From contig NZ_LMUF01000064.1 of assembly GCF_009766085.1 (NCBI RefSeq), forward strand, positions 94,108 to 158,107: a DNA stretch of 64,000 bases. Reading direction: 5' to 3'. Every line of letters begins with the position of its first letter. The stretch's first letter is position 1. The translations under genes were made by a program, and so were the position numbers. Source of the DNA: Burkholderia sp. S171 (GTDB lineage: Bacteria > Pseudomonadota > Gammaproteobacteria > Burkholderiales > Burkholderiaceae). Under the pieces are notes generated by a model. The model ran no database searches and was not told the origin of the DNA. It saw nothing but the letters and a program-made list of their open reading frames with translations. Below, in pieces: positions 25,244-41,373 of this stretch.

Positions 25244-26383
25244 TTATCTCTCCAGCTTCAGCGCCTTCCCATATCCCGTCAGTTCCAGATAACCGTGACC
25301 TAAGGCTTTACCGTCACGACTCAGCAATACCGCTCCTTCCCAATACACCGCGCCCGTCGACTGGCTGGAGTCGAGTTCCTGATCGTCCATCAATGGATCG
25401 AGCTGCCACGTGAGCGCACCAGTCCTGACCGTCTCCGATACCGGATAGGACGTGCCGGTCCGTGGCGAGCGCCATGTCCTACGCGGCGTGAAGTCGACTT
25501 GGTCCCCATCGAATGCAGTCACGTGCCCGTTCGCTTCGCGAAGCGCCGCGTGGGACCAGACGGTCCCGCCGTTTTGTCCGCGCACCTTGAATGCCATCAA
25601 TGCCGATCCGTCCGACAAATTGGCGCCTAGCCAGTCCCATCCTGTGGCATCGCTGCTAAGCACTGTGCTTGACCATTCGTGATCCAGCCACGCCGAGCCG
25701 GACACTGCTGTGCTCAGGCCGGCCTTGCCGGTCGCGTTCGCGTTTGAAGCACGTGTGACCTTGCCGCTCACGCGCAGTTGCGGTTCGCTGTAGTAGTAGC
25801 TCGCTTGCGCGGCCAGCGGACCTTTTCTCGAGTAGCCCTTGTCGCCCTGCAGCAGCGGTGCCTGAGTCGGCGTAAGCGTCAGGTCCAGCGTGAAATCGGC
25901 GGCATTCACGGTGACGGTGTAGTCACCATCGGCAGCACGCACTAGATGCCAGGCGTCGAGCTTGACGTCGGTGTAATCTGTTTTTGCATAGGCGAGACCA
26001 AAGCCCTGACGCGCAATCTTCTGATCGTGCACGAGTCGTCCCAGTGAGGGATCGCTAAGCGCCGCATGAGCGATGATCAACTGCGACGGCGCGAATGCAC
26101 CCGGGTCCGCGGGATCGTGTCCGGTCGCCGAGCGAAAGAACGTGATCTGGAAACCGAGCGGCTTGCCATCCGGTTGATTGAGCCAACCCGTTGCATACCA
26201 CCACTCGGTGCGAAAGGCCGGATGCGCGCCGGTGTCTTGCGGGAAAACAATCGGATGATCCGGTGTGACATTGGCGAACTCAGCGGCCATGGACGATGTG
26301 CTGGCCATGCAGCAAGCGCACGCCATCAAGGCATTCAAGGCCCATCGCCATGCCTGATTTAATGATCGGTTAGGACCACGCAT
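25244..26383 (-). CDS. AttH/CrtC-like lipocalin-fold exported protein
   Basis: A 379-residue protein with a signal peptide (about 34 residues, cleavage near MAAEF). It has the twin-lipocalin fold of AttH and carotenoid 1,2-hydratase (CrtC), shown by RTEWWYATGWL near the start and DHEWSS plus GWDWLGANLSDGSALMAF in the second half. There are no carotenoid genes here, so it is more likely the AttH-type partner of the adjacent ABC transporter. Its ATG overlaps the permease stop codon by one base (TAATG), so translation is coupled. Function is unproven. Confidence 0.85.
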   Translation of the reverse strand: MRGPNRSLNQAWRWALNALMACACCMASTSSMAAEFANVTPDHPIVFPQDTGAHPAFRTEWWYATGWLNQPDGKPLGFQITFFRSATGHDPADPGAFAPSQLIIAHAALSDPSLGRLVHDQKIARQGFGLAYAKTDYTDVKLDAWHLVRAADGDYTVTVNAADFTLDLTLTPTQAPLLQGDKGYSRKGPLAAQASYYYSEPQLRVSGKVTRASNANATGKAGLSTAVSGSAWLDHEWSSTVLSSDATGWDWLGANLSDGSALMAFKVRGQNGGTVWSHAALREANGHVTAFDGDQVDFTPRRTWRSPRTGTSYPVSETVRTGALTWQLDPLMDDQELDSSQSTGAVYWEGAVLLSRDGKALGHGYLELTGYGKALKLER

Positions 26384-28953
26384 TACCAGTCCTCCTTGAC
26401 CGCGCGCACGGCATCGAGCGATACCGCCTTGCGACCTGCGACCACGGCTGTTGCACAGGACGAGATCAGCATGACAAGGGCCACTGTGCTCACCATGTGC
26501 CATGGAATATGCATCGACATGCTCCAGTGGAACGACTGCGGATTCACGACAAACACCAGGATGAGGCTGATCGCCCAGCCCAGGACGAAGCCCACGGCAA
26601 TGCCGAGCGCCGTCAGCATGCCGGCTTCGGCCGCGAGGATCGCGAGCACCTGAGCACGCGTCACACCAACGTGCCGCAACATGCCGAACTCGCGCGCCCG
26701 AGCGAGTGTCTGCGCGGAGAACGTTGCCGCCACGCCGAACAGCCCGATCACAATGGCCACCGCTTCCAGCAGGTAGGTCACGGCGAAGCTCCGGTCGAAA
26801 ATAGTCAGCGTCCGAGCGCGGATGTCGCCGGGTTCGGCGAATGACATCGCGGCGGCGAAGGGCAGTCTGCGCAGGCTCGCAATGACACTTTCCACGCTTG
26901 CGCCGCGGTCCACGGTGATGGCGGCGTCGGTGGAGCCTGTGTCGCCCGTGAGGCGCCGGTAGTCGGCGAGCCGTAGCTGGATCGCTCCCGTTTGCCGCAC
27001 ATAATCGCGCCACACGCCGGCTACGACGAACGTCCCGCCCTGTGTGCCAATCGACAACTTGAGTCTTTGTCCCAACTTGTAGCGGTACAAGTCGACCATT
27101 GCCTCCGACACCCATATGGGCGTTTCGCCTTCCCGCAGGGCGGACGGTGGAAGCACGGGGCCGGTCATCTGCATGGCGGCGCCGGGATCGGCTGCATCGA
27201 TGTCACGCGCGAGCAGCGCCACCGCGGGACGTGCGGGGTCCAGCGTGAGATGCGACGTGCGGGTGAACGCGGCATGCCTGATGCCGGACGTCGCGGCGAT
27301 TGCCGTTTGTTCGCCGGGGCTCAGGCTCGCTGTGTCGCCATTGGTTGCTACGCGAACGTACAGGTCGGCGGACAGGAGATGGGTCAGCCATTCATCGACG
27401 GATACACGGAAACTCGCGACCATGATGGCCATCGCGACGATCAGCGCAAAGCTCGATAAAACCCCGCCCATGGCGATCGATGCCTGGCCGGGTGCGTTGG
27501 CGAGCCGGGCAAGCGCCAGCGTCGTGACGGCGCGTGCACGGCGTTTGGCGTGCCATCGGCTCAGCGCAGTGAACACGATCGCCGTGCAACGCGGCATCAA
27601 CGCGATTCCACCAATCAGCAGCAGCGCGACGGAAAGATAACCGAGGATGGGGACATCGAATAACGGTGGCAAGAGCGCCAGTATTGCCGCGACTGCGAGG
27701 CAGATCACAGCGGGCCACGGCGTCGCCAGCCGCGCCAGCGCGCCTTCTTCGCTCCCTGCTTTTAGCGCCGCCGCCGGCCTGGTGCGAGCCGCCTCAAGCG
27801 CCGGGACAAGACTGCCGAGCACGGACACGCCGATACCCAACGCAAGAAACAAGGCGCTCGCAATGGGCTCAAAACTGACATGCGGCTGCACGCCCGGAAA
27901 GTAACCGCCGCCCAGATCGCTGCCGAAGAAACGCAGGGCGATGCTCGACAATGCGTAGCCCAGTGCAAGGCCGAGCGCGGAGCCAAGTACACCGAGCAGC
28001 GCGCCTTCCATCAGGATCTGGCGTAGAAGCTGGCCGCGCGTATAGCCCAATACGCGAAGCATTGCGAACTGCGCCCGGCGACGAACGACCGCCAGCGCTT
28101 GCGTCGAAAACACGAGGAACGCGCCGGTGAAGAGCGCCACCAGCGCGAGCACGTTCATGTTGATCCGATACGCGCGCGAGAGGCGGTCGGTGCGGTTTTC
28201 ATCGTCGCGTGTTTCGGCTACGACCAGTTGATTGCCAAGCCGCGCTTGAAACTCGCGTTTGAAGCGTTCCCGATCGACGCCGCGTTGCAGTTGCAAATCA
28301 ATGCGCGAGAGTTTTCCTTCCAGTCCAAAACGCCATTGGGCGGCGGCAATATCCATTACCGCAACGCGTTGTCCCGGCCGCGTCCTGACCAAACCGCCGG
28401 CCATTCGGAAACGAATAATCGAGGTACCGCTAAGCAGCTCGACATGGTCACCGGGCGCCGCGTGAAGCCACTGTTGTGCAGCGGGTGATAGGAAAATGGC
28501 GTCGTCGGAAAGGGTATCGAGCGGACGCTGCGCAGACGGTACGCCGATCAGTTCCGGCGTGATGCGGCTCGCCCTGAAAACGTCGATGCCAAGCACTTTC
28601 AACGCAGCGGTCTGGCCGGGCACGGTCACGTCCAGATCGAGAACGGGGCTGGCTAAAGCGACGCCCGGTGTTGTTGCGAGACGCGGGTACCAGATTTCAT
28701 CGAAGGTGGGCTGCGCGCCGCGGACTTGCAGGTCGGCCTCGCCGGAAAGACTTTTGGCGGCTGCGGAAAACTCGTTGAATGCAGCACTGTTGATGAGCTG
28801 CACGGCATATCCGAGCGCCACGCCCAGCGCAATAGTTGCGATAGCCACGATCGCTCGCGCCGGATGACTGCGCCACTCGGCACCGAGCAACCAGCGCGCG
28901 AGTAGCCGGCCGCCTGCAATGCGCCGCGAGGGTGCCGGAACGCGTCCGCTCAC
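26383..28953 (-). CDS. FtsX-like ABC transporter permease (two-repeat form)
   Basis: An 856-residue membrane protein with two FtsX domains, each with a large periplasmic loop: helices near residues 30-55 and 270-400, then a second block near 410-520 and 740-840. MLRVLGYTRGQLLRQILMEGA and MLRHVGVTRAQVLAILAAEAG are the cytoplasmic coupling segments. This is a fused pair such as AttF-AttG or LolC/E-like proteins. The GTG start overlaps the ATPase stop (GTGA), so the two are translationally coupled. It probably drives movement of a lipid or lipoprotein with the ATPase and AttH-like protein. Confidence 0.88.
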   Translation of the reverse strand: MSGRVPAPSRRIAGGRLLARWLLGAEWRSHPARAIVAIATIALGVALGYAVQLINSAAFNEFSAAAKSLSGEADLQVRGAQPTFDEIWYPRLATTPGVALASPVLDLDVTVPGQTAALKVLGIDVFRASRITPELIGVPSAQRPLDTLSDDAIFLSPAAQQWLHAAPGDHVELLSGTSIIRFRMAGGLVRTRPGQRVAVMDIAAAQWRFGLEGKLSRIDLQLQRGVDRERFKREFQARLGNQLVVAETRDDENRTDRLSRAYRINMNVLALVALFTGAFLVFSTQALAVVRRRAQFAMLRVLGYTRGQLLRQILMEGALLGVLGSALGLALGYALSSIALRFFGSDLGGGYFPGVQPHVSFEPIASALFLALGIGVSVLGSLVPALEAARTRPAAALKAGSEEGALARLATPWPAVICLAVAAILALLPPLFDVPILGYLSVALLLIGGIALMPRCTAIVFTALSRWHAKRRARAVTTLALARLANAPGQASIAMGGVLSSFALIVAMAIMVASFRVSVDEWLTHLLSADLYVRVATNGDTASLSPGEQTAIAATSGIRHAAFTRTSHLTLDPARPAVALLARDIDAADPGAAMQMTGPVLPPSALREGETPIWVSEAMVDLYRYKLGQRLKLSIGTQGGTFVVAGVWRDYVRQTGAIQLRLADYRRLTGDTGSTDAAITVDRGASVESVIASLRRLPFAAAMSFAEPGDIRARTLTIFDRSFAVTYLLEAVAIVIGLFGVAATFSAQTLARAREFGMLRHVGVTRAQVLAILAAEAGMLTALGIAVGFVLGWAISLILVFVVNPQSFHWSMSMHIPWHMVSTVALVMLISSCATAVVAGRKAVSLDAVRAVKEDW

Positions 28954-29648
28954 TGATGCGCACCAGCAGGTTGCCCGGCATGCAACCCATGCTCGCTCAG
29001 AATGAGTATCCGATCCGCGCTGGCGGCCGCCGCCATGGAGTGCGTCACCATGATTGCCGCAGCGCCATTCGCCTTGATCTCCGCACGGAACAGTGAAAGC
29101 ACTTCATGCGCGGTTTCGGGGTCCAGGTTGCCCGTGGGTTCGTCAGCCAGGATCAGCGTGGGCCGATGCACCAGTGCGCGAGCGATGGCCACACGCTGCA
29201 GCTCTCCACCCGATAGCTGCCGTGGGAAGTCGTTGCCACGGCCACCCAGCCCAACGGCTTCCAGCAGGTCGAGCGCGCGGGCAGGCGAGGTGTTATTGAG
29301 CAACAGCGGAAGCGCGACATTTTGAACCAGCGTCAGATGCGGCAGGACATGAAAAGCCTGGAAGACGAAGCCGAGCTTTTGCCGCCGAAGGCGGGTTGCG
29401 GCGTTATCGTCGAGACTGGAAATGGACGTGCCGTCGATCAGCACTTCACCGCTGTCGGCTTGATCGAGGCCCGCGATCAGGTTCAACAGCGTCGACTTGC
29501 CGACGCCTGAATCGCCCATGATCGCGACGAACTCCCCCGGATCGAGTGTGAAGTCGAGGCTAGCCAGTAACACGCGGCCGGCGCCGTACGCCTTGCTCAA
29601 GCCGCGACATTCGAGTGCGGGAGATATGCCAGTGTCGCGAAGGGTCAT
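28950..29648 (-). CDS. ABC transporter ATPase, LolD/MacB-type
   Basis: A 232-residue ATPase with Walker [10 protein letters not shown], the Q-loop VFQAF, signature [15 protein letters not shown], Walker [13 protein letters not shown], and the switch histidine MVTHS. The GNLD after Walker B is a LolD/MacB mark. It begins a three-gene coupled operon with the FtsX permease and the AttH-like protein. I chose ATG 29648 (MTLRDT); the longer in-frame extension is unlike the family. Confidence 0.92.
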
Positions 29649-29768
29649 GAAGATCGGGCCGTCAGTGAGTGAAACCGCTTGCAGTCCTCCACTGTGACAG
29701 AGAAGTGTCGCGCGCGTGCAAAGGTACGGCCACGCACGGACCATTCCTTGTATGGACCCGAGCGCTTT

Positions 29769-30768: not shown

Positions 30769-32163
30769 CTAGCCGTGGGGCTCGCGAGGCAGGGTCAGCA
30801 CCGCATCGAGTCCTCGCTCAGCGCGGTGGCTCAACACCAGCGTGCCCCCATGCGCCATCGCGATGCTCTTCGCAATGGTCAGTCCCAGCCCGGTTCCGTT
30901 GGTCTTGCCGGGCCGCGCGCGGAAATACGGTTCAAACACTCGCTCAAGCATGTCTTTTCCTGCAATGCCCGGGCCTTCGTCGCTGATGGTAATGCGCACC
31001 GCGTCGCGATCGTCATGTATTTGTACCGAAGCACTGCCGCCATGCAGGATCGCGTTGTCGAGCAAATTCTGCAGGCAGCGTTTCAGGTTGCGCGGATATC
31101 CGCTGACAGGCGCGGCGGCGTGGCCGTCGAGTTCAACGCGTGCGCCCGTTTCAGCGAGGTCATCGCAGAGTGCACGCAGCAGCGAGTCAATATCGATCTG
31201 ATGGCGCGGCTCCGTTATCTCGACGCCTTGTACGAAGTCGAGCGTGCTGTGCACCATCGCGTCCATTTCATCCAGGTCAGTGCACAAGCGTTCACGCGAC
31301 GTCGCATCGGGCAACATCTCCGCGCGCAGTCTAAGTCTCGTCAGCGGCGAGCGCAAATCATGGGATATCGAAGCCAGCAAGCGCGTTCGTTCCTCAATAC
31401 TCCGAATCAATTGTTGCTGCATGGAATTGAATGACTGCGCGGCCACTCTCACCTCACGCGGTCCGAATAATTGCAACGAAGGCCGATACACATTCTTGCC
31501 CAGCGCCTCAGCCGCGACCGCGAGTCGCCGCAGCGGCTGAACGGCAATGCGCACGGCCACCAGCGCGAACAGAAGTGCGGCGATGAAACGGATCGCATAG
31601 ATGCGCAGCAGATACTCGATCACCAGTTTTCGCGGCTCGGTCTGCCGGCCCGCCTGTCCTTCTTGCGCGGTGACATCGAGCCAAACGCCGCCGGGTGCCT
31701 GGATCTGCACATGAAAATCGCCCGATGGCATGCGCGAGTCGAAGAGGCTGAAGATACCGCGATGACGGCCGGTGTCGTCGGTCAGTTCGGCATCGATCAA
31801 ACGCAGCGGTACGTGCTCGTGCAGACGTTGTGCGATCACGCTTGCAAGCAAGTCCTCAGTCGCACGTTGCGCGACCGTGTGCGACTGCGCTGGGAGTGGC
31901 GCTTCGATCCAACGTAACTGATAGCTGCTGTCCTCAAGCTGGCGTGCAAGATTTTGCCGCGCTGCCTGGTCCGGCGCGGCCTGCAGCAGGCGCACGGTGT
32001 CTGCAAGACGGCTTGAGAACAGACGTGAAGGGATCTCCAGCGTGCGGTTGTCGTGGGTCTCAAACCAGATCGTGCTGGTCAATAGCTGGCCGCCGAACAT
32101 GCCGATCACAAGGATCAGCGCGAGGCGTCCGAATAGCGTGTCGGGCCAGAGGCGAAACTTCAT
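30769..32163 (-). CDS. EnvZ-like sensor histidine kinase without a linked response regulator
   Basis: A 464-residue kinase. A membrane helix (about 12-34) is followed by a periplasmic sensor of about 150 residues, a second helix (about 190-208), a HAMP domain starting VQPLRRLA, and the dimerisation helix with phosphoacceptor H268 in SISHDLRSPLTRL. The ATPase domain has QNLLDNA (N box), DEGPGIAG (G1) and GTGLGL (G2). No response regulator gene adjoins it. It is divergent from a porin gene, and EnvZ controls porins in E. coli, so porin control is possible but not shown. Confidence 0.9.
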   Translation of the reverse strand: MKFRLWPDTLFGRLALILVIGMFGGQLLTSTIWFETHDNRTLEIPSRLFSSRLADTVRLLQAAPDQAARQNLARQLEDSSYQLRWIEAPLPAQSHTVAQRATEDLLASVIAQRLHEHVPLRLIDAELTDDTGRHRGIFSLFDSRMPSGDFHVQIQAPGGVWLDVTAQEGQAGRQTEPRKLVIEYLLRIYAIRFIAALLFALVAVRIAVQPLRRLAVAAEALGKNVYRPSLQLFGPREVRVAAQSFNSMQQQLIRSIEERTRLLASISHDLRSPLTRLRLRAEMLPDATSRERLCTDLDEMDAMVHSTLDFVQGVEITEPRHQIDIDSLLRALCDDLAETGARVELDGHAAAPVSGYPRNLKRCLQNLLDNAILHGGSASVQIHDDRDAVRITISDEGPGIAGKDMLERVFEPYFRARPGKTNGTGLGLTIAKSIAMAHGGTLVLSHRAERGLDAVLTLPREPHG

Positions 32164-32424: not shown

Positions 32425-33675
32425 ATGCCGATTCCAGGATCCTCGCTGCGCGCCCGTCGTTCCACCGTGTTCAAGCCCGCCGCATGGCGGCTTGCCGGAC
32501 TTCCTCGTGGCTCCAGCCCTACGAGGCGATGCCTCGAAAAAACGTTCGCCGCGACGCTGATCGCGAGCGCTTTCATCGCCAGCCCGGCCCACGCGCAGTC
32601 AAGCGTGACGCTGTACGGCGTCATCGATGCAAGCTTGCTCTATACGAACAATGCGCAAGGCCACGCCAACCTGCAGGCGAGCAGCGGCGCGGTGACGGGT
32701 AGCCATTGGGGACTGCTGGGGCGCGAAGACCTGGGTGCCGGCAACCAGGCGATCTTCCAGATAGAAGACGGCTTCAGCGTCATGAACGGCAGCTTGCGCC
32801 AGGGCGGCCGCGAGTTCGGCTACCAGTCATATGTGGGCTTGAGCAACAACCGGTTCGGCACGGTGACGCTCGGGCGGCAGTACGACTCGGTCGTCGATTA
32901 CCTCGCGCCGTTGAGTTTCACCGGCCGGCATCCGGGCGGCAATAACCTCTCCGCGCATCCGTACGACAACGACAACCTGAACAATTCGTTTCGTGTCGAT
33001 AACGCCGTGAAGTTCGCCAGCACGCCCTACGCCGGCCTGAAGTTCGGCACGCTTTACGGTTTCTCGAACGAAGCGGGCGGCTTCGACGACAACCGTCTAT
33101 ATAGCTTTGGCGCGTCCTACGATGCAGGCCCGCTGACGCTGGCTGCGGGTTATCTGCAGGCGAACAATCCGGGCGTGACCAACACCGACGGCGCGATCAC
33201 GCTGACGGACCGTACCTTCCTGACAGCATTGCAGCGGACCTACGGAGCAGGCGTTAATTATTCGATCGGAGCAGGGAAGCTGGGGTTCGTCTGGACACGC
33301 ACGCAGCTTGGCGGCCTTGCTGTGATCAACGGGGCGAACAGTCTGGGTCTCAAGCAAAACGGCCAGGGCGCGAGCTTCAACAACTTCGAAGTGAATGCGA
33401 GCTATCTGCTGAGACCGTCGGTGGCCGTGTATGGCGCTTACACGTACACGGATGGCGCGTTGTCGACGGCTAGCGGTGAGCATCACCCCAAGTGGCACGA
33501 GGTGTCGGTGCAGACGGACTACTTGCTGTCCAAGCGCACCGACGTGTACATACAAGCGAGCTACCAGCATATTGCAAGCGATGGCTCGGGACTGACCGCC
33601 GACATCAGCGGGCAGTCGCCGTCCAGCAAGAATGAGCAGGTCGCCGCCGCAGTGGGATTGCGGCACAGGTTCTGA
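32425..33675 (+). CDS. Gram-negative porin (OmpC/Burkholderia type), first copy
   Basis: A 416-residue trimeric-porin family protein. The signal core (TLIASAFIASPAHA) precedes the usual mature start QSSVTLYGVIDASL. The barrel strands follow the family pattern: FGTVTLGRQYDSVVDY, the constriction loop, SKRTDVYIQASYQH, and a terminal phenylalanine (GLRHRF). The N-terminus before the signal core is about 34 residues longer than usual, with no ribosome binding site. A one-base shift in an A6 run at 32537-32542 would join ATG 32529 (MPRKTFAAT...) to the frame. The paralogue at 40237 is similar along its whole length. Confidence 0.85.
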   Translation: MPIPGSSLRARRSTVFKPAAWRLAGLPRGSSPTRRCLEKTFAATLIASAFIASPAHAQSSVTLYGVIDASLLYTNNAQGHANLQASSGAVTGSHWGLLGREDLGAGNQAIFQIEDGFSVMNGSLRQGGREFGYQSYVGLSNNRFGTVTLGRQYDSVVDYLAPLSFTGRHPGGNNLSAHPYDNDNLNNSFRVDNAVKFASTPYAGLKFGTLYGFSNEAGGFDDNRLYSFGASYDAGPLTLAAGYLQANNPGVTNTDGAITLTDRTFLTALQRTYGAGVNYSIGAGKLGFVWTRTQLGGLAVINGANSLGLKQNGQGASFNNFEVNASYLLRPSVAVYGAYTYTDGALSTASGEHHPKWHEVSVQTDYLLSKRTDVYIQASYQHIASDGSGLTADISGQSPSSKNEQVAAAVGLRHRF

Positions 33676-33721: not shown

Positions 33722-36067
33722 TCATTCGTAGTTCGAGAATCGCGAGTCAGGCTCAGGCGGCGAAGGCAATGGCGTATAGCCTGGAATGCTCGCCTTAAAC
33801 TGCTCGGACAGCCCGTTGTCGATCTTCGTCAGGCCCTTGAGCTGAAGCTGCAACAGAACGCGAGTCGCGCTGCTGGCAGTGGTCGTGGTAGTGGCTACGT
33901 TCGTATATTTTTGCACCGCCAAGCTGAGCGACCAGCAATCCGCGTCGTACTGAACGCCGAGCAATCCCGCTACCAGGCGATGAGCGACCATGTCGAAATT
34001 GGCTTGGCCGACAGCGTAAAGCCTGCGGCTCAACGGCCATTGACCGGATGCCACAATCTGATTTTCCGCCTCGTTGTCCAGGTCCTCATCGGCGCGCGTA
34101 TACCGGTAAGCAATGCTGACTACCTCTCGATCTCCCGGTTTCCAGGTGAAGCCCGAAGTACCCTGGTCTAACTGATTGTGCTGCTCGTCGTACTGGATCG
34201 CCTGCTCGGTCGTAAAGCCCGGCCCAATCTTGAGCGACGCCCCGACAATGACGTCGCTGCCGCGAATGTCGGTCACGGAGGCGCCCGAATCCAGCGTCAC
34301 TTGCGGATTAGTGAAATAGTATTCCTGCGCAACCACGAAGCGAGCCCGTTGATCTCCCGTCGCCTGATTGATGAACCGGGTAGTCAGAGCAGCGGTGACA
34401 CGGTTCAGGTCGGCAACCCGGTCGCCGCCAACGAAGGTGTTGTCGGTGAAGATCTGGGCCAGTCCGAAGTCCTCTTCTCCTGTGTCGAAGACCGGTGCAA
34501 ACGTCTGGTTCCGGTAGGGCGTATAGACGTAGTAGAGCCGCGGTTCCAGCGTCTGGATATAGTCCGTTCCGAACAGGCGAATGCTGCGTTCGAATACGAG
34601 CCCTGAGTCCAGGCTAAGTGTGGGCACATTGAAAGAAAAACTCTTCGGTTGCCCCGTTGGCGCCGTGCTGCCGATTGAGGACAGGTCGTAGGCAACGTAG
34701 TGCCACTGCACCTTTGGCGTGATGAACCATCCCGGACCGGACAGCGGATAGCTGACGTACGGATTGAACGTGAAACGGCTGCCCTCGGTGGAGTCCGCCG
34801 TGGAAATAGTGAAGCGCGTGGCGTCAGCCTCGGCGCCGAAATCAAATCCGCCCATGTTGTACTGATTGTATTTAACGTCCAGTTCCGGCGCCCGATTGTA
34901 AGGCGGCGCGGTGCTGAAGGATTGCCAGCGCTGCTCCCGCGCCAGCACCGACCATGGACCGTTGTTGTAGGTCACGCCCGCCTCTTGCTGGAAGATGTCC
35001 TGCCCATTGACCAGCGATGCGGTATTCGAATTCAGGTCGGTCGTGACGTTGACGTCCGACACCTGCGAATAGTTAACATACGCAGCCAGCCCGCCGCCCA
35101 AGTTCTGGTTGTGCTGGATGTTGATCGAATAACGGTTGGTCTTGGTCAGGGCGTCGTCGGGCAAGTAGGAAATAGTCACCGAACCCGAATACGTAGGCGA
35201 CAGATAGCGGAAATTCGTTGTCAGCATTGCGCCGCGTTTGGACATGTAGCGCGGTGTCACGGTCAGGTCGTAGTTCGGCGCGATGTTGAAATAATACGGA
35301 ACGGTGAGATCGAATCCATTCGTCGAACTCAGCGAAAAGGTCGGCGGGAGAAAGCCGCTCTGGCGAGCGCTGGATAACGGAAACGACAACCACGGACTCG
35401 CAAAAATGGGTACGCCCTGGAAGAACAGCACGCCATTGTGAGCAATGCCTTCGTTCGACCCTTGGTCCATGTCGAAACTTGCCGCCTTGAGGTACCAGGC
35501 TGGATCCGTTTCGCACTGGCACGCGGTGTATGTGCCGTGATGCACGACTGAACGTTCATTATCGATCAACTCGATGCTGTCGGCGCTGCCCGATCCACCT
35601 GTCAGATTGAAGCGATAGGTCGGCGTGGTCATGGTGCCTTCGTTGGCCTCAACCTGAAGATGCGCTTCGGGGCCAACAAAGACGTCGTAGTCGTCGACTA
35701 TGCGCACATGCCCGTAGGCATCGACCACATTACGGTCGATGTCATAGTGAACGGCGTCGCCTCTGACAATGGTGGCGTCGCGTCGAAGCTCTCCATGACC
35801 TTTGAGCGACAGGTCACGATCCTCGTCGCCGTCCGCCGCATCGCCGATGCCGAATGCGGCCGGAGCGGTGTTGACCGGCAACGGATGCTCCGTCACCTCA
35901 GGTGCGAATCGAAGACCCCAGGGAGGCTCGATCGATTCTACCTGTGCCGCCGCGCCGCTTAGTTGCGCGCGTGCGGGCGACGGTGTGAGGGACATGACGA
36001 TCGCCGCTGCAACGGCGATATGACGCATGCGCGGCGTGAACCGGACGAATGTTTCTGCGGACTGCAC
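33722..36067 (-). CDS. lptD: LPS-assembly outer-membrane protein LptD (possible second copy)
   Basis: A 781-residue protein with a signal peptide ending near ARAQ, where mature Burkholderia LptD also starts (QLSGAAAQ). It has an N-terminal beta-jellyroll (LKGHGELRRDATIVRGDAVHYD) and a 26-strand barrel; family segments include GFLPPTFSLSSTNG and YYFNIAPNYDLT. Cysteines occur in ACQCET and DADCWSL, as I recall for Burkholderia LptD. It inserts LPS into the outer leaflet. The GTG at 36067 lies 3 bases after bamA and suits coupling; ATG 36028 (MRHIAV) is an alternative. The usual neighbours surA and pdxA are absent. Confidence 0.92.
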   Translation of the reverse strand: MQSAETFVRFTPRMRHIAVAAAIVMSLTPSPARAQLSGAAAQVESIEPPWGLRFAPEVTEHPLPVNTAPAAFGIGDAADGDEDRDLSLKGHGELRRDATIVRGDAVHYDIDRNVVDAYGHVRIVDDYDVFVGPEAHLQVEANEGTMTTPTYRFNLTGGSGSADSIELIDNERSVVHHGTYTACQCETDPAWYLKAASFDMDQGSNEGIAHNGVLFFQGVPIFASPWLSFPLSSARQSGFLPPTFSLSSTNGFDLTVPYYFNIAPNYDLTVTPRYMSKRGAMLTTNFRYLSPTYSGSVTISYLPDDALTKTNRYSINIQHNQNLGGGLAAYVNYSQVSDVNVTTDLNSNTASLVNGQDIFQQEAGVTYNNGPWSVLAREQRWQSFSTAPPYNRAPELDVKYNQYNMGGFDFGAEADATRFTISTADSTEGSRFTFNPYVSYPLSGPGWFITPKVQWHYVAYDLSSIGSTAPTGQPKSFSFNVPTLSLDSGLVFERSIRLFGTDYIQTLEPRLYYVYTPYRNQTFAPVFDTGEEDFGLAQIFTDNTFVGGDRVADLNRVTAALTTRFINQATGDQRARFVVAQEYYFTNPQVTLDSGASVTDIRGSDVIVGASLKIGPGFTTEQAIQYDEQHNQLDQGTSGFTWKPGDREVVSIAYRYTRADEDLDNEAENQIVASGQWPLSRRLYAVGQANFDMVAHRLVAGLLGVQYDADCWSLSLAVQKYTNVATTTTTASSATRVLLQLQLKGLTKIDNGLSEQFKASIPGYTPLPSPPEPDSRFSNYE

Positions 36068-36070
36068 GGA

Positions 36071-38422
36071 TTAGAACGACGTGCCGATCTGGAACTGGAA
36101 CTTCTGGTATTGGTCTCCTGCGTGCCGCACGATCGGCAAACCGAAGTCCAGCTTGAGGGGGCCGATTGGGGAAATCCACTCAAGTCCCGCACCATAGCTG
36201 TAACGCAGGCCGTTGGCGCCCACGCTGCTGCCTTCGTCGCCCCAGACATTGCCACCATCGACGAACGTAAACACACGCAGAGTCCGGTCGTACCCGGTAC
36301 CCGGCAGCGGGAAGGTCATTTCTATATTGCCGACAATCATCTTCGATCCGCCGATCGGGTCGCCGGTCGTGGCGTCGCGCGGTCCGAGTGAGCCGGACTC
36401 GTAGCCCCGCACCGAGCCAATACCGCCGCCGTAGTAGTTCTTGAAGATCGGATAAGCGTCGCCGCTTATTCCGTGGCCATAGCCTGCCTGGAAATTCATG
36501 CCGAAAATGAAACCTCGGGCGGGCGTGTAATAGTATTGAGCCTGAACATCTGATTTGTAGTACTGGGTATTTCCCGCTGGTGTGCCCAACTCGCCGTTGG
36601 CCTGGAGGAAATAGCCTTTGCTGGGTATCAGCGCACTGTCGCGTGCGTCGTGCGACCAGCCGACTGTTACCGGAACGTTGTTCACCACGCGACCGAACTC
36701 AGCAACATAGTCCAGGTAGCTTTGTGGCGTTGACGAGTCCGTGTTGAACCGGTCCTGCTCGAAGCCGGCACCAAAATAAACCACGTCGGATTCGGAGAAC
36801 GGTATGCCGAACTTCATATCCGCGCCAATCGATGTAATTCGAAAACTCGTGTCGCTGAAGTTGTAGAGCGGGTATGTGGTTCTGTAATACATGTCGGTAA
36901 TGCGCTTGATGCCATCGATCGTAAAGTAGGGATCGGTTTGCGTCACCGACAAGGTCCGGTACGTCTGCGCTGTATTGACGTTGACGGCCAGTGTGGTCCC
37001 CGAGCCGAACACGTTGTCCTGCGACACGCCGGCGGACAGCACGACCTTGTCGCTTGAGTCATAGCCTGCGCCCAGCGTGATCGCGCCCGTTGGTTTCTCT
37101 TCCACCTTCACATCTATGTCGACCTCATCGGCGGTGCCCGGCACCGGCACCGTGGTTACATCGGTGTTGGTAAAGTAGCCCAGCCGATCAATCCGTTCCT
37201 TCGAAAGCTTCAGGCGGCTGCTGTCGAACCATGAGCTTTCAATCTGGCGCATTTCACGACGTATCACCTCGTCGCGCGTCCGCGTGTTGCCTTCAATGTT
37301 CACCCGGCGTACATACACGCGTCGTCCCGGGTCAACCTGCAACGTCAACGCGACCGTATGATGAACCTGGTCAATTTCCGGCTGGGCATTGACCTGCGCG
37401 AACGCGTAGCCATACTCCCCCAGCTTGTCTACCAGTCCCTGGGTCGTGGCTTGCAGTTTTTCGGCCGAGAAACGCTCGCCCGCGCGAATCGATACAAGCT
37501 TTTGCAGTTCGGCGTTGCGATCGAGCAGGTTGCCGCCAAGCCGGATGCTCGAAATGGTGTACGGCTCGCCCTCGTGAATAGTGACGGTCAGGTACATATC
37601 CTTCTTGTCGGGCGAGATCGACACTTGCGTTGAGTCGATGTTGAACTCCAGATATCCGCGGTTCAGGTAATACGAGCGCACCTTTTCCAGATCCCCCGTG
37701 AGCTTGTCCTTCGCGTAGAGGTCGTTCTTTGTGTACCAGGAGAACCAGTTAGGGGTCGATAACTGCATTTCGTCGAGTAGCGTCGAGGAGCTCGCAATGT
37801 GATTACCCATGAAGTTGATCTGACGAATTTTCGCGCTCGGACCTTCCGCTACCGAGAACAGAATGGACACCCGGTTGCGGTCGATCGGCGTGACCGTCGT
37901 GGTCACCTCCGCAGCGTAATAACCTCGCGTCAGGTACTGGCGCTTCAGTTCCTGTTCGGCTTTGCTGACAAGCGCCTTGTCGTACGTGCTGCCTTGCGAC
38001 AGGCCGACTGAATGCAGCGCTTTGGTGAGGTTGTCCTTGTCGAACTCGTGGATACCGGCAAAGTCGATTGACGAGACGGCAGCGCGCTCCTGTACTTTCA
38101 CGACGACCACGTCACCTCGCGTCTCGACCTGAACATCGTCGAAGAAGCCGGTTGCGTAGAGAGCGCGAAGGGTCTCCGACGCTTTGTCGTCCGAGAAGAC
38201 GTCGCCTCGCTTGAGCGGGACGTAAGCGAAGACCGAGCTAGACTCAATGCGCTTCAGGCCCTCTATCTGAATGTCCTTGATGACAAAACTGCTGGTCGCC
38301 GCATAGACGCTCGGCGCAAGGAACACGTTCAATGCGAGGGCAACGGCTGAGTGAGCGGCGCGTAAGTTGCCTAGGTTGCGTAGCGTTTGGAACGTTCGGA
38401 AGGTTCGGAAATTGAATTTCAT
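36071..38422 (-). CDS. bamA: Outer-membrane protein assembly factor BamA (possible second copy)
   Basis: A 783-residue Omp85 protein. A signal peptide (cleavage near VYAAT) precedes five POTRA domains (about residues 45-445) and a 16-strand barrel. The L6 lid motif SVRGYESGSLGP is intact, and the protein ends in phenylalanine (IGTSF), as BamA should. BamA folds and inserts outer-membrane proteins. The usual neighbours (dxr, rseP, skp, lpxD, fabZ, lpxA) are absent; instead lptD follows directly. The start of the mature protein is normal, but the leader is unusually Phe/Thr/Leu/Arg-repetitive (FRTFRTFQTLRNLGNL). No clear ribosome binding site is visible. Confidence 0.93.
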   Translation of the reverse strand: MKFNFRTFRTFQTLRNLGNLRAAHSAVALALNVFLAPSVYAATSSFVIKDIQIEGLKRIESSSVFAYVPLKRGDVFSDDKASETLRALYATGFFDDVQVETRGDVVVVKVQERAAVSSIDFAGIHEFDKDNLTKALHSVGLSQGSTYDKALVSKAEQELKRQYLTRGYYAAEVTTTVTPIDRNRVSILFSVAEGPSAKIRQINFMGNHIASSSTLLDEMQLSTPNWFSWYTKNDLYAKDKLTGDLEKVRSYYLNRGYLEFNIDSTQVSISPDKKDMYLTVTIHEGEPYTISSIRLGGNLLDRNAELQKLVSIRAGERFSAEKLQATTQGLVDKLGEYGYAFAQVNAQPEIDQVHHTVALTLQVDPGRRVYVRRVNIEGNTRTRDEVIRREMRQIESSWFDSSRLKLSKERIDRLGYFTNTDVTTVPVPGTADEVDIDVKVEEKPTGAITLGAGYDSSDKVVLSAGVSQDNVFGSGTTLAVNVNTAQTYRTLSVTQTDPYFTIDGIKRITDMYYRTTYPLYNFSDTSFRITSIGADMKFGIPFSESDVVYFGAGFEQDRFNTDSSTPQSYLDYVAEFGRVVNNVPVTVGWSHDARDSALIPSKGYFLQANGELGTPAGNTQYYKSDVQAQYYYTPARGFIFGMNFQAGYGHGISGDAYPIFKNYYGGGIGSVRGYESGSLGPRDATTGDPIGGSKMIVGNIEMTFPLPGTGYDRTLRVFTFVDGGNVWGDEGSSVGANGLRYSYGAGLEWISPIGPLKLDFGLPIVRHAGDQYQKFQFQIGTSF

Positions 38423-38554
38423 TTAATGTACTTGACGAGCATATCGGCCCGGATGTGTTGCGTTGTTATCCGCGTCGTATCGGACGTGATCGGTGCCGTG
38501 CCTGGCCTGGACTTGCGTCTATCGGCTGCTAAGGAACTGCGTTGTACTGGCCAG

Positions 38555-39013
38555 TTACTGCAAGGGGCCGCTCGCGTGGGTTGGAATCTGAACCAGCCGT
38601 GCCGCTGCTATCAGCGCATCGACCATGGGAGGGATCTGCTCCCGGGGAAGACAAAAGGAAATGTCGGCCCCGCCTTGCAGCCGAAACGTAAGGACCAGGC
38701 TTTTGCCGTTATCGATCGCGCCGAGCTCCCATCCTTCGCAGCCCATCGCAAAGTTGATGTGCGGTGTTCGCTGAAGCATTCGCTCCGACTGCATGATCGC
38801 GGCGGGAAGGACGGCGAGCAGTTCGCGAAACACCGAGTAATGGAACGTCAGGGTCGACCGGTCGCAATGCACCACCATATGTTGGCCGTCGGGTTCCAGC
38901 TCGATGCGCTCGATGGAAGCAACCCGCACGGGTTCGGGCGGGTCGTTCCTTTCGACCCCTTCAGCCGGAACCGGGCTGCGCTGGGGGGCGATATTTTCTT
39001 TCACTAATGGCAT
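38555..39013 (-). CDS. Unrecognised 152-residue protein ahead of bamA-lptD
   Basis: A 152-residue soluble protein without signal peptide or membrane segment. Residues 1-32 are polar and proline-rich. The rest alternates strands and helices (IERIELEPDGQHMVVHC, LTFHYSVFRELLAVLP, KSLVLTFRLQGGADISFCLP, MVDALIAAARLVQI), suggesting a small alpha/beta domain. I do not recognise a family. It is 132 bases upstream of bamA on the same strand and so may be transcribed with bamA-lptD. A role in that system is only a positional guess. Confidence 0.7.
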   Translation of the reverse strand: MPLVKENIAPQRSPVPAEGVERNDPPEPVRVASIERIELEPDGQHMVVHCDRSTLTFHYSVFRELLAVLPAAIMQSERMLQRTPHINFAMGCEGWELGAIDNGKSLVLTFRLQGGADISFCLPREQIPPMVDALIAAARLVQIPTHASGPLQ

Positions 39014-40236
39014 ATTATGTAATCCTTATTTATTGTGTAAGGTATTGAAGGGGCAGGCAGCGGCCTTGTAGAAGACTGGCTACCTTGCGGTTCGGTTGCG
39101 GACGGATTCAAAAATGACCGGAATCTCCGTTGTTTCCTTCAGGCGGACGTTGGAGTTTCCTGGACGTCAGCAAGCGCTGCTTCGCCGCAAAGAGTCGGCG
39201 CTGGTGGCGCTATCGCGGAAGAAAGCCGCGCGTTGCCGGCCCGCTGACATGGCAACGAGTTTTTCCGAAAACAACGGCGTTGAACTGGCTCGCAGAACCG
39301 CTGCAAGAACTTGTGCGGAAAGAATGTGTTTCATCATGGTTTGCTGCCCTCGCGTGCAAGTCGCTAGACGAGTCACTAAAGTAGCTCGCTATATGACGCG
39401 GTGCGTTACGGCTTCGTTACCGCTTTTCTCACTTGAAATAGGGGGTGTATCGGCTGGTCAGCGAAGCAGCTTGGAAGTGCGGGGCAGGGGGATGGCTCGC
39501 TCAGGCTTGTGGTTAAAGCCTCTGGCCGGGTTTGCCGGATGCTGCATGTCTCTCTTTTTCACGAGAGAAAGGCGCTCAAGGCGGCACGCGTGACGGGTAC
39601 AGAGTGCGTTCTTAGAGACACAGTGAAATGCTAGGTGAGGAATGAGCGCGGCTTGGCTTAACTTAACTAGCGAAGCTAGGGACGAGCGGCTTCATGACGA
39701 TCCCATACGTATGTTTCATATTGGTTTAACTGTAGAACGATTATGCTGTTGCACGCTACGAACGTTAGCGCGCATCCACGCAGCGATGACGTTTCTTCCC
39801 TTGCATCAAGCGCGCCTTAGCCGCGTTTTATGCGTTACCCAATTGTTCCAGAATGTTCCCCTTCATGACCGCAGGGTACGCGTCGGATGATTGACTGCGT
39901 CCCGCGTCTTGCCGGTCGTTGCACGGAAACACCCGCGCAGGCCTTTCCAGAGAGCGCTTTGCCGGTCCACGGCATTTGCTTGAGCGCCCTGTTAAGCGCA
40001 AACCATTGCGTTACGGTTTTGGCCAACTGCAACGCTTGGTAACGATGCTTGTTGTCGGTTGCCAACAGCCCTCGCAAGACGCTGCTGTTTAATGGTGCCG
40101 GTCTGATCGACGCACGGCGACGTCGATCAGTACGCGCAGCAATGCACGTTTATCTGACGAGTTTCGCGGTGTTTACAACCCTTGACAGTGGGCCAGGCAG
40201 ACCGCGTTGCTCAATCGTATTTTCGGAGAAATTGAA
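39014..40236. other. 1.2-kb stretch without a convincing gene
   Basis: Neither strand carries a supportable gene: the longest open frames (165 codons plus, 69 codons minus at 39167-39376) lack ribosome binding sites or domain-like sequence. The left end must hold the promoter of the 152-residue protein operon, the right end that of the porin (SD CGGAGAA at 40223-40229). The remainder, about 800 bases, could hold an RNA, a long leader or decayed sequence. Confidence 0.5.
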
Positions 40237-41373
40237 ATGAAGAAATCCCTTCTTGCTCTCGGTGTCTTTGGCACCTTCGCCGGAGCGGCACACGCTCAGA
40301 ACAGCGTGACCCTCTATGGTCTGATCGACGCAGGCATCACTTACACAAACAACCAGGGCGGCAGCAAGAACGTCCAGGCAACCAGCGGTCAGGTCAACGG
40401 CAGCCGTTGGGGCCTGCGTGGCTCCGAAGACCTGGGCGGCGGTCTCAAGGCCATCTTCACGTTGGAAAACGGCTTTAATATCGATACCGGCAAGTTAGGC
40501 CAGAACGGCCTGGAGTTTGGTCGTCAGGCGTTCGTCGGTTTGTCGAGTGATCAGGCAGGCGCTATTACCCTCGGCCGGCAGTACGACTCAATGGTCGATT
40601 ACGTCGGCCCGCTCGCGCTCACGGGCACGCAGTTCGGCGGCACGCAAGCGGCCCACCCGTTCGACAACGACAACCTCGACAATTCGTTCCGCATCGACAA
40701 CTCGGTCAAGTACCAGAGCGTCAACTACGGCGGCTTCAAGTTCGGTGGCCTGTATGGTTTTTCGAACGACGCGGGTGGATTCTCGGACAACCGCGCATAC
40801 AGCATTGGTGCGTCATATAACTATGGTCCTTTGACCGCCGCAGCTAGCTACATGCAGCTCAACAGCGCGGGCTCCACGTTGAACTCCTCCGGCGCAGTGA
40901 ACACTGATGCTACGTTCGCAGCGGGCCGTCAACGCACCTACGGCGGGGGCGTCAACTACACGTTCGGCGCAGCGAATGTCGGCTTCGTGTTCTCGCAGAC
41001 TCAGTTGAGCGACTTGACGGGTATTGGCGCATCGGCCTCCGGCACGACAAACGGCATTGCCTTGGCAGGTGGCGGCGCGCGCTTCACCAATTATGAGGTG
41101 AACGGCCGCTACAACTTCACACCTGCGTGGACGCTGTCGGGAGCCTACACGTTCACCAATGCGAGCCTGGATGGGGTAAGCCCGAAATACAACCAGGTAA
41201 CCCTGCAGACGGCGTACGCGCTGTCCAAGCGTACTGACGTTTATCTGCAGGGCGTGTATCAGCACGTGAACGGTACGGGTGATTCGGGCCTGACCGCCAA
41301 CATCAACGGCTTGAGCGCCTCGTCGACCAATAGCCAGGTTGCTGCAACCATTGGCTTGCGTGCTCGCTTCTAA
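40237..41373 (+). CDS. Gram-negative porin (OmpC/Burkholderia type), second copy
   Basis: A 378-residue porin with a textbook signal peptide (MKKSLLALGVFGTFAGAAHA) and mature start QNSVTLYGLIDAGI. Strand motifs ITLGRQYDSMVDYVGP, NYGGFKFGGLYGFSN and the final LRARF match the family. The start is the ATG at 40237 after CGGAGAA. It shares the DNDNL(D/N)NSFR(I/V)DN segment and overall layout with the porin at 32425. It lies alone with a terminator downstream and presumably allows diffusion of small anionic solutes. Confidence 0.93.
   Translation: MKKSLLALGVFGTFAGAAHAQNSVTLYGLIDAGITYTNNQGGSKNVQATSGQVNGSRWGLRGSEDLGGGLKAIFTLENGFNIDTGKLGQNGLEFGRQAFVGLSSDQAGAITLGRQYDSMVDYVGPLALTGTQFGGTQAAHPFDNDNLDNSFRIDNSVKYQSVNYGGFKFGGLYGFSNDAGGFSDNRAYSIGASYNYGPLTAAASYMQLNSAGSTLNSSGAVNTDATFAAGRQRTYGGGVNYTFGAANVGFVFSQTQLSDLTGIGASASGTTNGIALAGGGARFTNYEVNGRYNFTPAWTLSGAYTFTNASLDGVSPKYNQVTLQTAYALSKRTDVYLQGVYQHVNGTGDSGLTANINGLSASSTNSQVAATIGLRARF

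Follow-up and report, generated by a model that had tools for sequence, protein, structure and literature searches.

The 64,000-nt stretch analysed here (the window) comes from the soil bacterium Burkholderia sp. S171 and carries, on its minus strand, genes for the outer-membrane assembly proteins BamA and LptD behind a gene for a 152-residue protein. A preliminary description, made from the sequence alone, had placed bamA and lptD 3 bases apart on one strand with the small gene upstream. All three open reading frames (ORFs) were confirmed at the coordinates claimed, and the gap is 3 bases if lptD starts at the GTG at 36067; an alternative ATG lies 39 bases inside, where a signal-peptide-like stretch begins. 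The bamA and lptD genes of the window are a second set, not a moved set, and we call them bamA2 and lptD2 and, together with the small gene, the module.

38555-39013, minus strand: small gene; 152-aa protein of a family without a name, no signal peptide or membrane helix evident
36071-38422, minus strand: bamA2, accessory BamA, 783 aa
33722-36067, minus strand: lptD2, accessory LptD, 781 aa counted from the GTG
39167-39337, minus strand: micro-ORF of 56 aa (MMKHILSAQVLAAVLRASSTPLFSE...), 5' of the small gene
39405-39420, minus strand: direct repeat GTAAC-N6-GTAAC, exact match, resembling an OmpR-family operator
40207-41373, plus strand: flanking porin gene, divergent from the module; putative neighbour or client (porin cluster 3 of the neighbour-gene clustering)
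32425-33675, plus strand: flanking porin gene, convergent with lptD2; putative member (Pfam Porin_4)
30769-32163, minus strand: histidine kinase, candidate sensor; EnvZ is the model closest to it (177 bits, cut-off 415)

A second, conserved set of BamA and LptD

The genome of this strain (8.49 Mb in 78 contigs, 100% complete) contains another bamA, 78% identical to the window copy, and another lptD, 58% identical over an alignment spanning residues 12-781 of the window LptD. The other bamA (G000:C67, locus L094) lies in the order frr, uppS, cdsA, dxr, rseP, bamA, skp, lpxD, and the other lptD (G000:C44, L095) adjoins surA, as read by eye from the translated flanks. None of rseP, skp, lpxD or surA was seen by eye among the translated neighbours of the module, which agrees with the preliminary description. 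That account would have been refuted had the window genes been the only bamA and lptD in the genome; the genome search gave further copies. Elsewhere in this study "canonical" was assigned by score and tree, the flanks having been read for this genome only.

Both proteins of the module resemble the canonical BamA and LptD of their own genome in their apparently full domain sets, and differ from them in lying at another locus with a small gene, a micro-ORF and a repeat. BamA2 has five POTRA stretches and an Omp85 domain (240 bits against a Pfam cut-off of 24) and scores 858 bits against TIGR03303 (cut-off 297), while LptD2 matches the LptD C-terminal domain, PF04453, with 315 bits (cut-off 22.4). 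The motifs were earlier described as intact. BamA2 keeps VRGY and ends in Phe, and LptD2 has three cysteines, the number also present in each of the 30 aligned copies treated as canonical. The N-terminal OstA-type jellyroll of LptD2 is a putative one, its match to PF13100 scoring 13.6 bits against a cut-off of 21.2 (E 0.053). Among 28 accessory LptDs, 17 have three cysteines and 11 have four to six.

We compared the module with those of four relatives and obtained dN/dS values (ratios of nonsynonymous to synonymous substitution rates) of 0.05-0.12 for the small gene, bamA2 and lptD2, which indicates purifying selection on all three. LptD2 departs most from the canonical LptD in its N-terminal part and in some stretches of the barrel. 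For BamA, the alignment column at which a gap falls at the alignment end is the only fixed difference (90% in each group) between canonical copies and the clade that includes the window protein (clade I, below), and the sequence of the window BamA thus gives no evident sign of specialisation.

A small-protein family tied to accessory bamA and lptD

The 152-residue protein was unrecognised in the preliminary description, and it has no match in Pfam, NCBIfam, PHROG or PADLOC; a profile of its family found no match among Protein Data Bank (PDB) sequences. As far as literature searches show, both this family and the micro-ORF are unexplored. The suggestion that the protein is a dedicated partner of the module gained support from its relatives. 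Across 398 Burkholderiaceae genomes we found 54 small-family genes in 48 genomes and five of the 25 genera, and all 54 lie directly upstream of bamA and/or lptD outside the canonical loci. Relatives by small-protein sequence are in Caballeronia sordidicola, C. udeis, C. mineralivorans and other Caballeronia. Outside the clade of the window trio the proteins are 32-45% identical to the window protein (P0001), and a C-terminal Gln is invariant across the family.

Within Caballeronia the family occurs in 12 of 58 genomes. Nine of these, the strain studied here included, carry a close small gene (86-100%) followed by bamA2 and lptD2, so the gene is not absent from the locus in relatives, which the preliminary description had counted as grounds for rejecting its reading. 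The other three hold a diverged trio (G048) or a small gene and bamA without lptD2 (G011 and G057). One genome, the C. udeis-like G055, has its own trio and also, where a contig ends, an extra small gene together with the opening codons of a bamA. Its contigs C5, C44, C124, C22 and C60 hold pieces of what may be three bamA genes, of which two are interrupted by the end of a contig.

The neighbourhoods of 13 Caballeronia small genes and of all 41 small genes from other genera could be placed, and they fall into three layouts: small-bamA, small-lptD with a bamA facing away, and small-bamA-lptD. The 41 loci from other genera comprise 22 of the small-bamA and 19 of the small-lptD type. In 13 of the 19, a bamA paralog lies nearby in the opposite orientation (a 134-aa fragment in L154, and cut by the contig end in L152). 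All 16 genomes given a whole-genome search have at least two bamA matches, and all 19 small-lptD genomes have two lptD matches; the remaining bamA-linked genes are taken as second copies from their position in the tree. Five genomes outside Caballeronia (G280, G289, G321, G345 and G392) contain two modules, each with its own small gene. Some copies lie on large replicons (NZ_CP049157, NZ_CP022991, NZ_CP084288 and NZ_CP084276), and plasmid-borne examples occur in records of Caballeronia and Paraburkholderia aromaticivorans.

We also examined the converse, whether extra lptD copies come with the small gene. Extra lptD occurs in ten of the 58 Caballeronia genomes, always inside a module. In the other genera, 33 genomes have two lptD matches; 19 of them have the small gene beside the extra copy, and eight more have a ~124-aa gene of another, similar-looking family upstream of it. 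Eight of the 14 genomes beyond the 19 were looked at, that is, all except G127 (from which the canonical copy alone, L179, was retrieved), G200, G211, G263, G290 and G397. The ~124-aa family has a C-terminal Asn where the small family has Gln. It is a look-alike and at best a putative homologue of the small family. At L151:4447-5393 a single accessory bamA is preceded by a gene of each family, the two in tandem. In some loci, most clearly upstream of bamA2 in L171-L175, the diverged small gene is separated from the module gene that follows it by another short ORF, and further such ORFs occur in L172, L176 and L177. In G042 the canonical lptD is only a fragment in the assembly, and G030 (10% contamination) has a second canonical-like bamA.

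Quick trees with SH-aLRT support were built from hand-chosen sequences (64 of 117 BamA rows and 64 of 94 LptD rows). Some rows of the small-protein and LptD trees have long branches, and for the small-protein tree the tool warned of long-branch joins. Accessory BamAs form two clades, which, depending on where the tree is rooted, may share one origin: clade I contains the window trio, the divergent loci and loci of the C. grimmiae type, while clade II contains the small-bamA loci and the diverged trios. At 100% SH-aLRT, the BamAs of L088, L130 and L131 belong with the canonical copies of Caballeronia, either nested among them or as their sister. The BamA tree requires two or more switches between the canonical and the small-linked state, indicating that the small gene remained in place through repeated exchange or recruitment of bamA. 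Accessory LptDs need just one change from canonical. The small-protein tree separates a bamA-linked from an lptD-linked class, with the window clade between them.

Each of the 28 clade II accessory BamAs printed (L132-L151, L171-L175, L177, L178 and L097) reads GYGSGEGPI[IV]SAG close to where the barrel begins, whereas all 35 copies taken as canonical read GAGFSSTDKVVLSAG. The block holds eight of the ten non-gap fixed differences between clade II and canonical BamA, and in the canonical-like window protein it reads GAGYDSSDKVVLSAG. We regard the clade II block as a candidate lateral-gate change. In E. coli, lateral-gate inhibitors contact this part of BamA.

The predicted structure of the small protein is a low-confidence model with two beta-beta-beta-alpha units. 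The first four rows of a Foldseek search with this model are PUR-alpha chains, a weak resemblance to PUR-domain nucleic-acid binders such as Borrelia Pur-alpha (3nm7). It is possible, and we propose it tentatively, that the protein is an operon regulator acting on nucleic acid. A role as export chaperone for the BamA2 and LptD2 precursors seems more doubtful.

The micro-ORF, the shared repeat and nearby regulators

Upstream of the small gene lie two elements that the preliminary description missed, the micro-ORF and the direct repeat. The micro-ORF is present in exactly nine of the 58 Caballeronia genomes, those with the close trio, and in L153-L165, which belong to other genera, remote relatives of it occupy the corresponding place directly before the small gene. 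Its median dN/dS over 32 codons is 0.32 (124 of the 136 pairs of 17 sequences), a value that mixes distances. A block of ~110 bp upstream of the micro-ORF is strongly conserved in the nine loci and contains GTAAC-N6-GTAAC, a sequence that looks like an OmpR-family operator. The repeat is exact in five of the nine aligned trio loci and has one mismatch in four.

We counted the repeat in 31 representative upstream regions of 450 nt and in 60 shuffles of them. Exact copies occur in five of the 31 (shuffled mean 0.017), copies within one mismatch in 13 (shuffled mean 0.3, maximum 2) and copies within two mismatches in 23 (shuffled 4.7). Over 25 loci, the upstream regions hold 13 sites in 11,250 bp against four in 421,007 bp elsewhere, a 122-fold enrichment. 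The position is also kept: in 24 of 29 bamA-linked loci, a repeat with at most two mismatches lies at -71 to -76 from the small-gene start. It is missing there in L089, L133, L135 and L151, and in L142 it lies at -30 from the start used. The divergent loci have a second, weaker copy facing bamA2. Loci with the other small family have no repeat except one two-mismatch site in L176. The whole genome of this strain has three exact sites, compared to 20 for a reversed control pattern; one of the three is upstream of a lon-like gene, between it and a clpX-like gene (L232).

Candidate regulators stand close to part of the modules. Eight of 60 modules (L086, L087, L098, L099, L154, L168, L169 and L180) have a kinase and a regulator resembling BaeSR no more than 2.5 kb away, these proteins being identical in L087 and L098. 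For three kinases and three regulators from L087, L154, L168 and L169, BaeS and BaeR were the best models by a wide margin: 471-484 bits for BaeS with the next unrelated model at 197-207, and 303-317 bits for BaeR with the next at 227-235, scores that do not reach the equivalog cut-offs of 603 and 380. The remaining pairs were placed by tblastn. L153 has a BaeR with a BaeS cut by the locus end, and L166 a BaeR fragment. An OmpR-like regulator adjoins the module in nine loci (L086, L087, L098, L099, L156-L158, L163 and L165), and OmpR was the best model for the three scanned (121-164 bits, cut-off 331). The window itself has neither a BaeSR pair nor an adjoining OmpR-like regulator; its nearest kinase is EnvZ-like.

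A precedent is known from Klebsiella, in which BaeSR activates bamK and BaeS mutations raise bamK 30- to 850-fold (PMC13059784). BamK replaces BamA and confers resistance to the BamA inhibitor PTB1-1 (PMC13059784). Like BamK, the accessory BamAs stand beside an intact canonical copy, and several have BaeSR-like systems nearby; unlike the modules, bamK comes with no mention of an LptD paralog or a small partner gene in the available part of PMC13059784. The window differs further in lacking a BaeSR pair, in belonging to another genus and in the 78% identity of its BamA to the canonical copy, compared to 63% for BamK. BamA paralogs are also known in Pseudomonas (PMC4104836, PMC6240691), and bamA2 there is likewise described as a recent duplicate at another locus (Heinz and Lithgow 2014, PMC4104836), with condition-specific control already suggested by its authors. 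According to the available text of PMC4104836, the genes upstream of Pseudomonas bamA2 are not conserved, whereas here it is the small gene upstream that stays constant. Spare BamAs are familiar from these two genera, but a conserved pair of spare BamA and LptD with a small family and an operator of its own was not found in the literature searched. The searches, which covered few subscription journals, also gave nothing relevant on a second LptD or on Burkholderia and Caballeronia paralogs of the two genes.

A proposed reserve set of assembly machines and its alternatives

The preliminary description had read the window genes as a second, probably co-regulated set of assembly factors. That reading is largely supported by the canonical copies elsewhere, the kept one-strand arrangement, purifying selection and the promoter-proximal repeat. 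We go further and propose, with a probability of roughly 0.58, that the locus is an envelope-stress-controlled reserve set of outer-membrane assembly machines. An envelope-stress sensor would activate an OmpR-family response regulator, which would bind GTAAC-N6-GTAAC and turn on the micro-ORF, small gene, bamA2 and lptD2, presumably as one operon. BamA2 would join the ordinary BamB-E and fold outer-membrane proteins including LptD2, and LptD2 would join the ordinary LptE and export lipopolysaccharide (LPS). Surface building could then continue even if the canonical BamA or LptD were overtaxed or inhibited, for instance by an antibacterial peptide, a bacteriocin or a phage, with the 152-aa protein as a cytoplasmic factor dedicated to such loci. 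The sequence itself shows the second copies, the constant small-gene linkage, the micro-ORF, the repeat, the purifying selection and the BaeSR-like genes near some modules, whereas we infer the operon transcription, the regulator, its inducing signal, the sharing of BamB-E and LptE and what the small protein does.

Three other explanations compete with this one. BamA2 and LptD2 might be a specialised set for particular clients or LPS forms, such as the flanking porins, always on in certain niches. Two porin genes do flank the window module, porins occur in 22 of the 60 neighbourhoods clustered (with genes from a home-made gene caller), and LptD2 has diverged from the canonical protein as described. 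However, porins are numerous in these genomes, one also lies near the canonical lptD (L095), and with the same gene caller the porin cluster appears in just L151 among the 22 bamA-only loci outside Caballeronia. Together with the lack of fixed differences between canonical and clade I BamA, this makes the specialised set unlikely, and a weaker reading than target replacement. In the latter, the additional copies would shield the cell from antibiotics, lectin-like bacteriocins, contact-dependent toxins or phages directed at BamA or LptD, with the small protein or micro-ORF taking part. Both natural and synthetic agents are known to target BamA, Klebsiella is protected from PTB1-1 by BamK (PMC13059784), an LptDE-binding phage has been reported (PMC12685063), and the clade II barrel start differs from the canonical one in every copy printed. 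Yet the window BamA is canonical-like at precisely this point, and no biosynthetic gene cluster was recognised beside the module among neighbours that are only partly annotated. As the sole explanation target replacement is improbable; it is close to the reserve reading and may be the selective reason behind it.

The spare genes might instead be ballast, spread with plasmids and chromids by chance or for a dosage benefit and without a dedicated function. Copies on the four large replicons and the patchy distribution in Caballeronia fit this idea, but the low dN/dS, the shared repeat, a small-gene linkage constant over diverged lineages and the exchange of bamA behind a kept small gene do not. 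We consider it very unlikely and already disfavoured. More ambitiously than the stress-controlled reserve set at this one locus, one can imagine a Burkholderiaceae regulon of reserve factories, assembled repeatedly around a possibly PUR-like cytoplasmic family with a bamA and an lptD class, partly with a leader micro-ORF and switched by an OmpR-family regulator through the repeat. The small protein would monitor or gate synthesis of the replacement barrels, so that both machines are swapped under attack. This is speculative.

BamA and LptD are prime antibacterial targets, and the similar spare sets held by related bacteria suggest a switchable backup for the cell surface. If the modules prove inducible, they offer a testable explanation for the retention of duplicate genes for essential barrels, and single-target inhibitors of BamA or LptD could be bypassed in part of the Burkholderiaceae.

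Other neighbours vary among loci. An FtsX-type permease and an ABC ATPase (window 26383-29744; clusters 21 and 12) are kept beside the trio in the five trio loci compared. Glycosyltransferase genes lie near some modules, as an annotated run in C. zhejiangensis (L098:1-7942) and as a putative glycosyltransferase, cluster 34, near the modules of L162, L168, L169 and L180. On NZ_CP022991 an annotated AbiE pair follows the bamA by ~5.5 kb.

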